From: Caldisericaceae bacterium
GTDB taxonomy: Bacteria > Caldisericota > Caldisericia > Caldisericales > Caldisericaceae
DNA length: 55,454 bases
Assembly (NCBI GenBank): GCA_036574215.1
Contig: JAINCR010000103.1
Span: 1 to 55,454 of the forward strand
Direction of reading: 5' to 3'
This document shows positions 10,072 through 19,437 of the stretch, piece by piece. Within the stretch, counting starts at the first letter, position 1. Each line of letters opens with the position of its first letter. Made by a program: the position numbers and the translations under genes. Under the pieces are notes generated by a model. It worked only from the letters and a program-made list of their open reading frames with translations, did not search any database and had not been told where the DNA came from.

Positions 10072-10148
10072 TTTTGCCTCTTTTAAATTATATCAAAAAT
10101 CATACTAAAAATTAAAAATGCATTATAATTCAAACATGGAGGTGAAAA
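10072..10148. promoter_or_regulatory. Divergent promoter region
   Basis: Two TATAAT boxes face away from each other: minus-strand at 10087-10092 for the IscU-like gene and plus-strand at 10124-10129 for the amidohydrolase. Both -35 regions are weak. The plus-strand gene has GGAGGTG ahead of its GTG start. Confidence 0.5.
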
Positions 10149-11312
10149 GTGTTACTTTTAAAGAATGCTAAAATTTTTACCATTTCAAATGGAACTTTAG
10201 AAAGAGGCAATATCTTAATTGAAGGTAAAAGAATTAAAGATGTTAGTGCTGAACCCATCCAAGTTGACGAAAACGTTAAGGTAATTGACCTTAATGGTAA
10301 AATGGTTTTTCCGTCATTTATCGACGCTCACACACACCTTGGCACTTTTTCTTTGGAAGGAACTGAAATGGATGAAGATGGAAATGAAATGACTAACTCT
10401 GCTACTCCTGGCTTAAGAGCTATTGATTCTATAAATCCTTTTGATCCTGCCTTTAAAGAAGCATTTGAATCTGGATTTATGATTGTTTTTACAGGAAGTG
10501 GTTCTGGAAACGTTATAGGTGGATTAAGTGTTATTATGAAAACATACGGAAATTTGGTTGACAAAATGATCATTAGGAATCCAGCAGGTTTAAAATGCGC
10601 CTTCGGAGAAAACCCCAAAAGAGTTTATACTTCAAAAAATCAAATTCCTACTACGAGAATGGGCACAGCAAAAGTTTTCAGAGAAACTCTCTTTAAAGCT
10701 AAAAATTATTACGAAAAGAAAAAAAGCGGTGAAAAGGTTGATTTTGATTTAGATATGGAAAGTCTTTACCTTGTTTTTGATCATCAAATTCCTTTAAGAA
10801 TCCACGCCCATAGAGCAGATGACATTGTGACAGCTATAAGAATTGCTAAGCACGAGTTTGGTCTTGATGTTGTAATTGAACATGGAACAGACTCAGCAAG
10901 AATAAAAGATTTTCTTGCTAGGGAAAATGTGCCTGTTATAGTTGGTCCTATTTTGGATGTTTCTCCTAAAGTTGAAACTAAATCAAATTCATTTAAAAAC
11001 CCTAAAGAATTAGTAGAAGCAGGAGTAAGAGTTGCACTAATGACTGACCACCCCGTTGTTTCAATTGGATACGCAAGAATCCAAGCTGGTTTAGTTGCAT
11101 ACGAGGGAAACCTTGGTTTTGATGAGACATTGAAACTCATTACAATAAACCCAGCAAAAATACTAAATATTGAAGAGGATTACGGAAGTATTGAGAAAGG
11201 AAAAATCGCTAATTTAATAATTTTCAACGAAAACCCCTTCTCTGTTCTTAGTAAAGCAGACACGATTATCTTTGAGGGGGATGTTGTTTTTGAAGGAGGA
11301 AAACATGTATAA
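10149..11312 (+). CDS. Metal-dependent amidohydrolase, imidazolonepropionase-like
   Basis: 387 residues, GTG start behind GGAGGTG. It is a member of the amidohydrolase superfamily (TIM barrel with a small beta domain formed by the two ends). Metal ligands are visible: His61/His63 (DAHTHLG), His219 in RIHAHRADD, His245 (VIEHG) and Asp300 (MTDHP). The end NPAKILNIEEDYGSIEKGKIA is typical of imidazolonepropionase-like and related hydrolases. The substrate is unknown; no histidine-degradation genes are near. It overlaps the next gene, a paralogue, by 8 bases, so the two proteins are probably made together. Confidence 0.85.
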   Translation: MLLLKNAKIFTISNGTLERGNILIEGKRIKDVSAEPIQVDENVKVIDLNGKMVFPSFIDAHTHLGTFSLEGTEMDEDGNEMTNSATPGLRAIDSINPFDPAFKEAFESGFMIVFTGSGSGNVIGGLSVIMKTYGNLVDKMIIRNPAGLKCAFGENPKRVYTSKNQIPTTRMGTAKVFRETLFKAKNYYEKKKSGEKVDFDLDMESLYLVFDHQIPLRIHAHRADDIVTAIRIAKHEFGLDVVIEHGTDSARIKDFLARENVPVIVGPILDVSPKVETKSNSFKNPKELVEAGVRVALMTDHPVVSIGYARIQAGLVAYEGNLGFDETLKLITINPAKILNIEEDYGSIEKGKIANLIIFNENPFSVLSKADTIIFEGDVVFEGGKHV

Positions 11313-12414
11313 GATCCATGCAAAAAAGTTATTTACAGGTGAAAATATCATTGAAGATGCAACTATCCTTTTTGATGAAGAAAAAATCGTTCATATTGGT
11401 GATGATATAAACGAACCTGTAAAAGAAACTTACAATACGTATTTTTTAATGCCTCCCCTTATCGATCTTGGTTCAGGTATTGGATTAAAAGAAGAATCAC
11501 TTGGCAGAATTGAAGGTGATGACTTAAACGAGGCAACTTCGCCAGTATACCCTGAACTTTTAGCATTAGATGGAATAAACCCCTATGATGAAGCCTTTGA
11601 TAAGGCAATATCAGGCGGAACTTTAATTAGTTTAGTTTTACCTGGAAATTCTAACCCAATTGGAGGCAGAGGAGCTCTTATTTATAACTATGGCAAACAA
11701 GTACTCGATATGACTATGAAGTCTCCGTTTGGAATTAAGTTTTCGATAAATACTGAACCGAAATCAACCTATGCCCCTAAAAATAAAACACCTTCAACTA
11801 GGATGGGTATTGCATATCTTATAAGAAACACCTTATATAAAGCAAAAGAATATCTAAAGGAACACAAGGAGCAAAACTTAACTTATGAATCTCTTTTAGA
11901 TCTTTTGAATAGAAAAGATACAGCTTTCTTCGCAAGCTTTAGAGCTGATGATATTGCAACCTCAATAAGAATAAGTGAGGAGTTTAATTTAAAAAGTGTT
12001 ATCCTATATGGAGTTCAGGCAAACTTAGTAAAAGAACTTTTAAAAGAAAAGGATATACCAGTCGTATATGGTCCCCTTATGTTCCCACGTTGGTCAATAG
12101 AACTAAAAGGATTATCTTCAACTGTCCCCATAGAACTTGTTAAGGAAGGTATTTTGGTTGCTTTGACTTCTGGTCATCCACTATTCCCAGCAAAATATCT
12201 TAGACTGAATGTAGGATTATTCATAAAGGAAGGCCTAAATGTTGCTGAAGCACTCCAAGCGGTAACTCTAAATCCTGCAAAAATCATTGGAGAAGAAAAT
12301 TTAGGTAAAATACAAGTTAACGGAGTTCCAAATTTAGTTGCTTATGATAATGAACCTTATGATACAGTAGCAAAAACTAATTTCGTATTTCTAAAAGGTA
12401 AAAGAATCCAATAA
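11305..12414 (+). CDS. Amidohydrolase paralogue lacking all metal ligands (pseudoenzyme)
   Basis: 369 residues, ATG behind GGAGG. It aligns end to end with the preceding amidohydrolase (shared INPxDxAF, TPSTRMGxAxLxRxTLxKAKxY, RADDIxTxIRI, NPAKI). Every expected metal ligand is changed: HTH becomes GSG (IDLGSGIG), the two histidines of RIHAHR become Ala and Phe (FASFR), EHG becomes LYG, and TDHP becomes SGHP. The fold is intact with no stops or frameshifts, so it looks like a selected non-catalytic partner rather than decay. It could form a hetero-oligomer with its neighbour or act as a binding protein. A strong terminator follows. Confidence 0.82.
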   Translation: MYKIHAKKLFTGENIIEDATILFDEEKIVHIGDDINEPVKETYNTYFLMPPLIDLGSGIGLKEESLGRIEGDDLNEATSPVYPELLALDGINPYDEAFDKAISGGTLISLVLPGNSNPIGGRGALIYNYGKQVLDMTMKSPFGIKFSINTEPKSTYAPKNKTPSTRMGIAYLIRNTLYKAKEYLKEHKEQNLTYESLLDLLNRKDTAFFASFRADDIATSIRISEEFNLKSVILYGVQANLVKELLKEKDIPVVYGPLMFPRWSIELKGLSSTVPIELVKEGILVALTSGHPLFPAKYLRLNVGLFIKEGLNVAEALQAVTLNPAKIIGEENLGKIQVNGVPNLVAYDNEPYDTVAKTNFVFLKGKRIQ

Positions 12415-12420
12415 TTAAAT

Positions 12421-12459
12421 AGCCTCCCTTAGGTATGTAACTAATTGCCTAGGGAGGCT
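12421..12459. terminator. Strong inverted repeat between convergent genes
   Basis: AGCCTCCCTTAGG (12421-12433) pairs with CCTAGGGAGGCT (12448-12459), a 12-bp stem with one bulged base and a 14-base loop. It lies between two convergent genes and can serve both. Only short T-rich tracts follow. Confidence 0.75.
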
Positions 12460-12477
12460 GTAGATTATCTTTGGTTA

Positions 12478-12954
12478 TTAATCCTTTATCTTCCTTTCAA
12501 TATAACTTTTGTAATCCTTTGTTATTGGTTTATAGTTCGAGTTAAAAAGTGGAGAAGAAATTAAAAAGTCAGCTGTAGCTCTATTGGTTGCTGTGGGCAA
12601 ATTATAAAGAGTAGCAATTCTTAAGAGAGCTTTAACATCGACATCATGAGGTTGTGGCTCCATTGGATCCCAGAAGAAAATTAGGTAATCAACTTTACCT
12701 TCCACAATTAATGCCGATAGCTGTACGTCACCGCCAAGAGGCCCTGATTTAAGTTTTATTATATTAGGGCTAACTCCCTTCTTTTTCAACGCCTCTTCAA
12801 CAAGCCGTCCTGTTGTACCTGTGCAAACAAGCTCACAAGTAGAGATTGTTCCCCAATTAAATTCAACCCACTCAATAAGATCTTTCTTTTCGCTATCGTG
12901 TGCAACAAGAGCAATCCTTTTCTTTTTAAAACTTGCATTTCTTTCATTATTCAT
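12478..12954 (-). CDS. mgsA: Methylglyoxal synthase
   Basis: 158 residues. It converts dihydroxyacetone phosphate to methylglyoxal, a bypass of lower glycolysis used when phosphate is scarce or sugar phosphates accumulate. Motifs: RIALVAHDSEKKDLIEW, LVCTGTTGRLVEEA (phosphate binding), SGPLGGDVQLSALI with the catalytic Asp, and FFWDPMEPQPHDVDVKALLR with the second Asp and His. It lies 78 bases after the end of the operon that carries both phosphofructokinases and may be read from it or from its own promoter. Confidence 0.95.
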   Translation of the reverse strand: MNNERNASFKKKRIALVAHDSEKKDLIEWVEFNWGTISTCELVCTGTTGRLVEEALKKKGVSPNIIKLKSGPLGGDVQLSALIVEGKVDYLIFFWDPMEPQPHDVDVKALLRIATLYNLPTATNRATADFLISSPLFNSNYKPITKDYKSYIERKIKD

Positions 12955-15601: not shown

Positions 15602-16977
15602 GATTCTCTTTTTGGTAAGACTACTGTAAATTTCGTTCCAATCCCAACCTTACTTTCAACAAAAATCTCTCCACCATGTTCTTCTATAATTCTGTAAGCT
15701 ATAGCTAGACCCAAGCCTGTTCCTGAACTTTTAGTAGTGAAAAACGGCACAAATATGTCTTTCAAATTTTTTTCATCTATCCCTGAGCCATTATCAATTA
15801 TTTCAATTCTTACATGATTTTTTTCTTCTAAACAATTTATTTCAACATAACCTAAGTTTTTATCTATAGCCTGCACTGCATTAATCACAAGGTTTAAAAA
15901 TAGCTCCTCTAATTTCCTTGCATCAGCTACTAAAAAAATATCAGAGCAGTTAAGCTTAAATTCTATATTCTTTTTCTCATCGTAGTGCTTTGCAACTTCA
16001 ACAATATGAGTAAAAAAAGGTTTTAAATTAAACTTAGAAAATGATAGTGGAGATGGTCTACCGTATTTTAACAAATCATCTGCAATTCTCTGCAATCTTT
16101 CGCTTTCATTTATAATTGTAATAACGTATCTTTCCTCATCTTTTCCTTTTAATTTCTGAGAAAGAATCGAAGCAAAGCCTTTAATTGAAGTAAGAGGATT
16201 TCTTATTTCATGGACTATGCCTGCAGTGAAAAGACCAAGAGACTTTAATGCCTCTGTTCTTTTTATTTCTTCAATGTTTCTTTTTAAACTTAAAGCCATT
16301 GAGTTAATTGAGTCTGCTATATCTCCAATTTCTCCACCGTATTTAGGGAATTTAAAATCTAAATCTGTTTCTAATTTCTTTAAACCCCTTCTTAAAGAAA
16401 GAATTCTTATGTTGAAGAAAGAAGTTATTAACAATACAATGATCACAGTTATAAATGCAAGATAAAAGACAAGCCTATTTATCTTTAGAACAATTCCTTT
16501 AACATTTGAATTAATCCTTTCATACGGAACTGCTGCAAAAATGTATCCTCCACCAAAACTATCAGGAATTGCTGAAACGATTATTAAATTCTTCGTTAAT
16601 GGTTTTGGGGTGTTAACAGCATGAAAAGGCTCGTCAAATACTGGTATATAATAACCTAAACCAACATTTGAGTAGACAGTTGAAATAGTTGAAAAATAGT
16701 TATCTACAAGTGGTTTTAAGAAAACATTAATATAAACACGTTTAAGCGACGGAGAAATGCTATTATAACCTCTCAAAAAAGATTCTGCTTCATAAAACTT
16801 TTCGTAGCGTTCTTCAACCTGACTTACGATTATATTAATCCTACTTGATTGATTTGCAAGTTCATTTTGTAAAAGATAATCCGAAATATTAGTTGATATG
16901 ATAAAAAACACAGTGGTGATAAAAAACAAAAGCACAAAAATCAGTTGAAATCTAATGGAAAGAAAAAACCTCTTCAT
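15598..16977 (-). CDS. Sensor histidine kinase (NtrB/AtoS/ZraS type)
   Basis: 459 residues. One membrane segment lies near 8-30, then an external sensing region of about 130 residues, a second membrane segment near 168-192, HAMP, HisKA (GIVHEIRNPLTSIKGFASIL with the phospho-His) and HATPase_c (N box NLVINAVQAID, G1 DNGSGID, then FFTTKSSGTGLGLAI). It is the partner of the sigma54-type regulator encoded just downstream. The external domain is not recognised. Its ATG overlaps the pfkA stop by one base, so the two-component system is co-transcribed with glycolytic genes. Confidence 0.93.
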   Translation of the reverse strand: MKRFFLSIRFQLIFVLLFFITTVFFIISTNISDYLLQNELANQSSRINIIVSQVEERYEKFYEAESFLRGYNSISPSLKRVYINVFLKPLVDNYFSTISTVYSNVGLGYYIPVFDEPFHAVNTPKPLTKNLIIVSAIPDSFGGGYIFAAVPYERINSNVKGIVLKINRLVFYLAFITVIIVLLITSFFNIRILSLRRGLKKLETDLDFKFPKYGGEIGDIADSINSMALSLKRNIEEIKRTEALKSLGLFTAGIVHEIRNPLTSIKGFASILSQKLKGKDEERYVITIINESERLQRIADDLLKYGRPSPLSFSKFNLKPFFTHIVEVAKHYDEKKNIEFKLNCSDIFLVADARKLEELFLNLVINAVQAIDKNLGYVEINCLEEKNHVRIEIIDNGSGIDEKNLKDIFVPFFTTKSSGTGLGLAIAYRIIEEHGGEIFVESKVGIGTKFTVVLPKRES

Positions 16978-17939
16978 TACACCGAAACTTCCTCAATTAT
17001 TTTATAGAGATTGTAATTTATTTCTTTAGTCTTCGTAACAGCATCTTCCAGAGGGATGTGTATCAAATGATTATCTTTTATTCCCACAACATAACCAAAT
17101 TTATTATTCAAAGCCATATTAACTGCCTCTACTCCAAAAAGAGTGGCTAAAATTCTATCAAATCTTGTAGGTGACCCCCCTCGTTGTATGTAACCAAGCA
17201 CAGAAACTCCAACATCAAGATCAGGAAGTTTTTCCTTTATTATATCTTTAAGTTTATCTCCTTTGATAGCACCTTCTGCAGTTACAATCATATGGTGTTT
17301 TTTCTTTTTTTGTAAACCTACCTTTATGTTTTCAATAATCTTTTCAATATCAAATTTAATTTCTGGTATTAAAGCCATATCAGCACCACTTGCAAGAGCT
17401 GCTTCTACTGCAATAAAGCCTCTATTTCTTCCCATGACTTCGACTATAAATGTTCTATTGTGTGAAGTAGCAACGTCTCGTATTTTATCAATTGCTTCAA
17501 CGGCCGTATTTACTGCAGTATCAAAACCAATTGTGTAATCTGTTCCGTATAAATCATTGTCAATTGTTGATGCTATACCAACAATTGGAAAGTCTTTTTT
17601 GTAAAGAGACAGCGCTCCACTTTGAGATCCGTTACCACCGATTACTATTAGGGCATCAATACCTAAATCTCTCATATTTTGTATAGCTTTCTCCTGATAT
17701 GTTTCTTCCTTAAATTCTTCTATTCTTGAGGAAAGAAGTATAGTTCCACCCTCCTCTAAAATTCCACTAACATCTCTAGGAGAGAATTCTATAAAATTTT
17801 TTTCAACTAAACCCCTGTAGCCTTCCAAAACCCCAAAAACAGCAAGCCCATTTATGAAGCCAGCTCTCACGACGCTCCTTATCGCTGCATTCATACCAGG
17901 AGCGTCTCCTCCTGATGTTAAAACACCAATTCTTTTCAT
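16977..17939 (-). CDS. pfkA: 6-phosphofructokinase, ATP-type
   Basis: 320 residues, the length and pattern of bacterial ATP-PFK: RIGVLTSGGDAPGMNAAIR at the start, STIDNDLYGTDYTIGFDTA with the catalytic Asp, EVMGRNRG and YIQRGGSPT. The nucleotide-site signature normally read as GGDGS is GGNGS here, an Asp-to-Asn change at a position involved in Mg binding in E. coli PfkA. The neighbouring gene is a PPi-type paralogue, overlapping by 4 bases. ATP use is inferred from the Gly after the Asn, the usual ATP/PPi discriminator. Confidence 0.88.
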   Translation of the reverse strand: MKRIGVLTSGGDAPGMNAAIRSVVRAGFINGLAVFGVLEGYRGLVEKNFIEFSPRDVSGILEEGGTILLSSRIEEFKEETYQEKAIQNMRDLGIDALIVIGGNGSQSGALSLYKKDFPIVGIASTIDNDLYGTDYTIGFDTAVNTAVEAIDKIRDVATSHNRTFIVEVMGRNRGFIAVEAALASGADMALIPEIKFDIEKIIENIKVGLQKKKKHHMIVTAEGAIKGDKLKDIIKEKLPDLDVGVSVLGYIQRGGSPTRFDRILATLFGVEAVNMALNNKFGYVVGIKDNHLIHIPLEDAVTKTKEINYNLYKIIEEVSV

Positions 17940-18952
17940 CTACCAAAAATTTCTTTGAGTCTTATCCACTCTTCGTCAACAAGTTTGGGTCTATTCACAG
18001 CATCTTCCAAAGAAACCGAAATAATCTTATTACCAGAAAGTGCCGCCATTTTTCCGAATTCGTTATTATGAACCATGTCAATAGCGTGAACTCCGAGTCT
18101 CGATGCAAGTATCCTATCAAAAACAGTTGGTGGACCACCTCTCTGTATATGACCTATAACTGCACTTCTTGTAGAAACATTGAGCTTCTTTGAAATTAAA
18201 TCTGCAATGTATTCGTGAACTCCCCTTTTTTGTAAAAGTTTATGACCAAATTCGTCAACCTCAGTCTCTCTCTCGTTGGGAATTTCAATTCCTTCTGAAA
18301 CCACTACAAGTGCGTATCCTTTTTCTTTGAAGACTTTTTCCAAATGAGCAAACATAGCATCAAAATCAGGTTTTTCTTCCGGAATAAGGATCCAATCTGC
18401 ACCACCTGCAATACCAGTATAAAGCGCAACCCAACCTGCCTCTCTTCCCATAACTTCTAAAACTATTATTCTCTTATGGGATTTTGCAGTATCTCTCAAT
18501 CTATTTAAAGCATCAACTGAAACTTCCACTGAAGTAAAGAAACCAAAAGTGAAATCGGTTTGTGAAAGATCGTTGTCCATTGTTTTTGGCACACCCACAA
18601 CTTTAACTCCCATTTTGTAGAGTTTTAAAGCAACTGAAAGAGTATCATCACCACCGATAGCAACAAGTGCATCAATGCGATTTTTATTGAGAGTTTCTAT
18701 AACTTTAGAAGGGCCATTTTCTTCTTTAAAAGGATTTGTTCTTGATGTAAAAAGAATAGTTCCACCAATGTTAAAAATCTCTTCAACATCTTTTATTGAA
18801 AGAGTTCTTGTTTTATTTTCTATGAGCCCTTTCCAACCTTCCTCAAATCCTATAACTTCATCTCCATGATGATAAGCATTGTAAACTACTCCTCTTATTG
18901 CAGGATTTAAACCGGGGCAATCGCCGCCACCTGTTAAAACTCCAATTCTCAT
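17936..18952 (-). CDS. Phosphofructokinase, probably PPi-dependent
   Basis: 338 residues. It shares the PFK fold with the next gene (RIGVLTGGGDCPGLNPAIRG, FEEGWKGL, LEVMGREAGW, HIQRGGPPT). The two diagnostic positions are of the pyrophosphate type: GGDDT instead of GGDGS, and PKTMDND instead of STIDND. Such enzymes phosphorylate fructose-6-phosphate reversibly using PPi, saving ATP in fermentative organisms. The ATG at 18952 lies 6 bases behind AGGAGG and overlaps the pncC stop (TGATG). Prediction of the phosphoryl donor follows the established rule and was not tested. Confidence 0.9.
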   Translation of the reverse strand: MRIGVLTGGGDCPGLNPAIRGVVYNAYHHGDEVIGFEEGWKGLIENKTRTLSIKDVEEIFNIGGTILFTSRTNPFKEENGPSKVIETLNKNRIDALVAIGGDDTLSVALKLYKMGVKVVGVPKTMDNDLSQTDFTFGFFTSVEVSVDALNRLRDTAKSHKRIIVLEVMGREAGWVALYTGIAGGADWILIPEEKPDFDAMFAHLEKVFKEKGYALVVVSEGIEIPNERETEVDEFGHKLLQKRGVHEYIADLISKKLNVSTRSAVIGHIQRGGPPTVFDRILASRLGVHAIDMVHNNEFGKMAALSGNKIISVSLEDAVNRPKLVDEEWIRLKEIFGR

Positions 18953-19437
18953 CAATAACCTCCTACTAATAGTTTATATAATTGGTTTAGAGCAAAATTA
19001 ACAATTCTGTTTCTTATTATATCACGATTTCCTTTAAAATTAACTTCAAGTACGTAGTTTTTACCATTTTTAAAGGCAAAACCAACGTATGCAAGTCCAA
19101 CTGGTTTTCCTTCTATAGAATCAGGACCTGCTATACCTGTAGTTGAGATAGCAATATCACTATTAAACAAAAGTAGTGTGTTGATCGCCATATTTTTTGC
19201 AATCTCTGAATGCACAGTTCCAAATTTTTCGATCAGTTCTTGGGATACTTTAAGTATATGAGTTTTAGCAAAAACAGAATATGAAACTATGCCACCTAAA
19301 AATATCTTTGAACTTCCTCTAAAATCGGTAATGGTTTTCGAAAGCAAACCACCTGTAACTGATTCACTTACAGCGATCGACAAATTCTTTTCTATCAAAA
19401 ACTCTACAATATTTATACTATTACTCACCGCTAACAT
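18952..19437 (-). CDS. pncC: CinA C-terminal-type nicotinamide-nucleotide amidohydrolase
   Basis: 161 residues, a stand-alone CinA C-terminal domain. Motifs: LSIAVSESVTGGLLSKTIT with the serine nucleophile region, GSSKIFLGGIVSYS and STTGIAGPDSIEGKPVGLAY. The family deamidates NMN to nicotinate mononucleotide in pyridine-nucleotide recycling. No Shine-Dalgarno is seen; a TAAAAT box lies 8 bases before the ATG, which would give a near-leaderless mRNA. It is first in the operon leading to both PFKs. Confidence 0.9.
   Translation of the reverse strand: MLAVSNSINIVEFLIEKNLSIAVSESVTGGLLSKTITDFRGSSKIFLGGIVSYSVFAKTHILKVSQELIEKFGTVHSEIAKNMAINTLLLFNSDIAISTTGIAGPDSIEGKPVGLAYVGFAFKNGKNYVLEVNFKGNRDIIRNRIVNFALNQLYKLLVGGY

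Follow-up and report, generated by a model that had tools for sequence, protein, structure and literature searches.

The window, as the whole 55,454-nucleotide contig analysed here is called, contains a predicted amidohydrolase gene (gene A) and directly behind it a metal-less paralogue (gene B), which together probably belong to a known kind of system, the enzyme–pseudoenzyme pair represented by pseudo-dihydroorotase and the prozymes. Protein B is probably a subunit without catalytic function that serves to stabilise or activate protein A. We infer that the two genes are co-transcribed as a two-gene unit and that their products would associate into a hetero-oligomeric amidohydrolase. In this complex, catalysis would fall to A. 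Protein B, an old paralogue whose metal site has been lost, would have been retained since then in a prozyme-like role, as a non-catalytic structural, scaffolding or activating subunit. This proposal was based on homology, fixed loss of the ligands, purifying selection, linkage with co-loss, and the predicted fold.

The window came from the draft genome (1.3 Mb) of a heat-loving Caldisericum-type bacterium of the Caldisericaceae. A genome of the same genus, G004, consisted of a single 1.56 Mb contig, and the named relatives were Caldisericum, Caldisericales and Candidatus Cryosericum. Gene A (10149–11312) encoded 387 residues from a GTG start, with GGAGGTG (10138–10144) read as its ribosome-binding site, and gene B (11305–12414) encoded 369 residues from an ATG start, both on the forward strand as were all their features described below. 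The ribosome-binding site read for gene B, GGAGG (11295–11299), was located inside the 3′ end of gene A, five bases ahead of the ATG. The start of the listed open reading frame, a TTG at 11272, was unlikely to be the start of gene B, and the ATG at 11305 with its GGAGG was preferred. The reading frame of gene B was open throughout. The two proteins were aligned by BLASTP with 35% identity over 372 columns (E = 1e-64), a similarity that is, on this alignment, far above chance. The coordinates, the whole-length alignment and the 8-base overlap (11305–11312) given by an earlier sequence-only reading were confirmed by the open reading frames and by the BLASTP alignment. A strong hairpin (12419–12461, forward strand; MFE −26.5 kcal/mol, z −4.2) was located 3′ of gene B and ahead of a convergent MGS-domain gene (12478–12954, reverse strand). 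This hairpin is the probable shared terminator of the two convergent genes, and no strict T-run terminator match was found at it.

Protein A matched the Pfam families Amidohydro_3 (4e-20) and Amidohydro_1 (2e-18) with 67–73 bits, above the cut-offs of 25–30. The closest solved structure by sequence was 3ooq of Thermotoga maritima (7e-95), and the AlphaFold2 model of A (mean pLDDT 94.4) was well matched to it with TM values of 0.94–0.95; the model also resembled prolidase-type enzymes in fold. In subtype-I amidohydrolases, the HxH motif is located on strand 1, a lysine on strand 4, histidines on strands 5 and 6, and an aspartate on strand 8. In protein A, alignment and model gave H61-T62-H63 (10329–10337) as the HxH motif of strand 1, K149 (10593–10595) as the lysine of strand 4, H219-A-H221 (10803–10811) on strand 5, H245 (10881–10883) on strand 6, and D300 (11046–11048) on strand 8, the strands being counted by our own reading of the predicted secondary structure. 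Residues H61, H63, K149, H219, H245, and D300 were at or adjoining the predicted strand ends. The metal-ligand positions were intact and formed a full set, and in the model their placement is subtype-I-like. By its Pfam matches, fold and ligand set, A was assigned to the metal-dependent amidohydrolase superfamily and is a predicted enzyme. The NCBIfam matches of both A and B were all below the cut-offs, and therefore no specific enzyme name is justified for either protein.

Protein B scored 23.0 against Pfam, just under the gathering score of 25. Its closest solved structure by sequence was again 3ooq (1e-65), and its AlphaFold2 model (mean pLDDT 94.5) gave TM values of 0.94–0.96 to that structure. 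After 3ooq, the next fold neighbours of A and B were of the prolidase, Arg/Lys carboxypeptidase and triazine-hydrolase types, with TM values of about 0.6. The metal site was lost from this fold. In the alignment, HTH was replaced by G56-S57-G58 (11470–11478), within a conserved S-G-I-G-L sequence, HAH by A210-S-F212 (11932–11940), H245 by Y235 (12007–12009), and D300 by G290 (12172–12174). The motifs were thereby changed from HTH to GSG, RIHAHR to FFASFR, EHG to LYG, and TDHP to SGHP. Compared with the metal ligands of the amidohydrolase superfamily, B had G56, G58, A210, Y235, and G290 at the ligand positions, and K145 (11737–11739) was the sole former ligand position kept. The sequence-only reading had described every metal ligand as replaced, which was correct for the HTH, RIHAHR, EHG, and TDHP motifs and incorrect for the strand-4 lysine. 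If K149 is a bridging ligand in A, its equivalent alone would survive in B, without a partner. To name B an amidohydrolase on grounds of homology gives a misleading idea of its catalytic ability.

Eighteen other genomes, belonging to two families, contained orthologues of B, some of which were cut at contig ends. Wherever the sites were covered, HxH was changed to x-S-G, the strand-5 histidines were lost and the aspartate of TDHP was replaced by glycine, and none of the orthologues had the metal set; the conservation of the ligand losses, which the sequence-only reading had put forward for checking, was thus established. The strand-6 histidine was replaced in every B sequence except that of G011, which had AHG and lacked the other ligands. 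The adjacent A copies all contained the complete ligand set. The residue of B equivalent to K149 was lysine in the genus Caldisericum and in Cryosericum, and arginine in most other Caldisericaceae. Pairwise dN/dS values, calculated by NG86 and given for the pairs with usable dS since several distant pairs were dS-saturated, were 0.05–0.17 for B and 0.04–0.13 for A. Purifying selection therefore acts on gene B, though a little less strongly than on gene A, and in most comparisons B evolved at a somewhat higher rate than did A. Residues lost across the orthologues, a fold that was kept and selection on the gene, by which an enzyme–pseudoenzyme pair is recognised, were all found for B.

The invariant columns numbered 128 in A and 81 in B, of which 46 were common and identical, including TRMG and R-x-DD. 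The B orthologues retained TRMG, R-[AS]-D-D, and GHP, and they also had an invariant S-G-I-G-L of their own, which was part of the strictly conserved S-G-I-G-L-x-E-E-S, together with a strictly conserved [SA]GHP. In the active-site region, residues H245, T247, D248, E154, N155, and R158 were invariant in A and variable in B. These patterns bear on the main rival to a subunit role, an unlikely one that nevertheless carries some weight, in which B would be a ligand-binding sensor or allosteric regulator that kept the metal-less pocket, bound the ligand of A and controlled A or another target. The invariance of TRMG, R-x-DD, GHP, and other residues near the former active site would be in line with such a sensor, whereas the variation in B at the six A-invariant positions points to a remodelled pocket, and B carried no DNA-binding or signalling domain. 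The strictly conserved set of B (S-G-I-G-L-x-E-E-S and [SA]GHP) could also belong to an enzyme with a new, metal-independent activity. This is improbable, since no plausible new catalytic set was found in B and the strict dependence on the neighbouring A would be left unexplained.

In the phylogenetic trees, all B sequences formed one clade (100/100) with a long stem, and all A sequences of the Caldisericota formed a separate clade (100/100). Both clades spanned Caldisericaceae and Cryosericum, which indicates that A and B predate the split between these two families. On the same grounds, an origin of B by a recent, genus-level duplication of A was ruled out. In the AU test, neither a constraint placing A and B as sisters (p 0.117) nor a constraint placing B with the metal-less domains of other phyla (p 0.21) was rejected; in the best tree, the latter domains were apart from B. 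In line with a functionless, decaying duplicate, B was more divergent than A and was left as remnants in two Cryosericum genomes. However, the frame was open in many genomes, the dN/dS values of 0.05–0.17 indicated constraint and the retention was older than the two-family split, so that this explanation has next to no probability. A decaying or one-off copy was ruled out by the conservation and the dN/dS values, and the sequence-only reading, which had noted neither stops nor frameshifts and no decay in B and had proposed the dN/dS estimate, agreed with these results.

The two genes were strictly linked. Gene A was carried by 18 of the 49 genomes of the class, and gene B was directly downstream of it in all 18, the two genes overlapping by up to 8 bases or being separated by up to 5; no case of A without B was found among the 49 genomes. 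The pairing in related genomes that the sequence-only reading had put forward as a check was thereby observed, the inactive member co-occurring with the active one in 18/18 cases and occurring only as remnants in two other genomes. Neither gene was present in G006, a genome of this family that was 99% complete. The flanking genes were alike upstream in the window and G004 and alike within groups of close relatives, the Cryosericum genomes for instance, and were mostly different between genera while A and B stayed together, which indicates that A–B travels as a unit. Both remnants were in the Cryosericum group: in G030, the C-terminal part of B was present alone, and in G034, a short open reading frame (contig L025, about 1459–1758) joined the N-terminus of A to the C-terminus of B. 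As would be expected, these remnants fit deletions that removed A and B together, and the open reading frame of G034 would correspond to one deletion through the pair. In Caldiserica bacterium UBA4770, three xanthine-dehydrogenase-like subunit genes were located directly after A–B on the same strand (L049, 7178–10821).

The wider survey consisted of a family scan of named genomes followed by ligand typing. Many relatives contained a single active-type gene, and an A-type protein therefore need not have a partner. Tandem pairs with ligands in both copies were found in Fermentithermobacillaceae, Halothermothrix, Lachnospiraceae, and Heimdallarchaeota. Such single genes and doubly active pairs, like the higher evolutionary rate of B, count against the subunit role. 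In a tandem copy of Bathyarchaeota (L109, 7144–8313), the first histidine of HxH was replaced by glutamine (QxH) and the other ligands were present. In Planctomycetota, Acidobacteria, Gemmatimonadota, and two further groups, an active-type copy either had one or two metal-less copies as neighbours or was joined to them in one protein. Several single chains of 1,378–1,476 residues had the domain order dead–active–dead (fusions at L151, 675–4949; L152, 590–4723; L153, 480–4907; and L154, 614–4996). In an Erysipelotrichaceae pair (L120, 176–1330 and 1318–2481), the metal-less copy was the first gene and not the second.

The fusion of active and metal-less domains, as read from these chains, argues for live and dead family members working in one complex and is the strongest indirect evidence for it. 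It also bears on a further explanation, that A and B have separate jobs and are merely co-transcribed. Adjacency by itself is no proof of association, and one family member suffices in many relatives; nevertheless, the 18/18 pairing, the joint loss and the active–dead fusions of other phyla make separate jobs very improbable. The sequence-only reading had suggested that B was retained as a partner with a structural, regulatory or sensing function, and the strict linkage, the co-loss and the fused homologues elsewhere point in that direction. A broader proposal, which is tentative and somewhat doubtful, is that hetero-oligomers are the basic form of this subfamily, and that on repeated occasions one of their members turned into an obligate activator after losing its metal site. 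Repeated loss would be represented at least by the Caldisericota, the planctomycete/acidobacterial group and an Erysipelotrichaceae bacterium. If true, evolution would have run the same natural experiment several times, turning an enzyme into its own regulatory subunit, with forms from two genes to three fused domains.

The gene context of the family consisted mostly of single-gene or pair-only units. In a selective survey without a background control, the family neighbours elsewhere included genes for M14, M20, M24, M3, and S9 peptidases and asparaginase, and further neighbours were FmdA/AmdA and hydantoinase A genes. As a clue to the substrate, this context, together with the xanthine-dehydrogenase-like subunit genes of UBA4770, is suggestive only, and a guess would be that A acts on a small peptide or another C–N bonded amino-acid or heterocycle derivative.

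Several known systems were compared with the A–B pair. The Thermotoga maritima protein 3ooq, an amidohydrolase of unknown function, has a full ligand set like A and unlike B. The pseudo-dihydroorotase (pDHO) of Pseudomonas aeruginosa is an inactive chain of the amidohydrolase superfamily that is required for ATCase activity (PMC7053772). Like B, pDHO is a metal-less member of the superfamily, and it is an essential non-catalytic subunit; its partner, however, is an unrelated transcarbamoylase, whereas the presumed partner of B is its own active paralogue. In the prozymes of trypanosomatids, the live enzyme is activated by its own dead paralogue, as for AdoMetDC (PMC5201418) and deoxyhypusine synthase (PMC3663545). 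The prozymes have other folds, are eukaryotic and interact with their enzymes as experimentally demonstrated, whereas A and B are proposed to associate. The dead–active–dead arrangements are of the same subfamily as A–B and likewise couple an active copy to metal-less copies. They differ in that several look exported, with signal-peptide-like starts, in that some are fused, and in that the best tree groups their dead domains separately from B.

Among openly licensed papers, a limited search found neither an account of a metal-less partner in the 3ooq family nor a paper on 3ooq. To our knowledge, few bacterial pairs have been documented in which an enzyme is accompanied by its own dead paralogue. 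The A–B pair is deeply conserved and minimal, and its two small proteins of a thermophile should express easily. The relatives display single active genes, tandem active–active pairs, active–dead pairs, and fused dead–active–dead chains, and with these stages present the path from a duplicate to a non-catalytic subunit is directly testable.

Another tandem of overlapping paralogues was observed in the window. Two phosphofructokinase genes (16977–17939 and 17936–18955, both on the reverse strand) differed in that one had GGNGS where the other had GGDDT (PPi-PFK-like), and from these motifs they are possibly another divergent enzyme pair.
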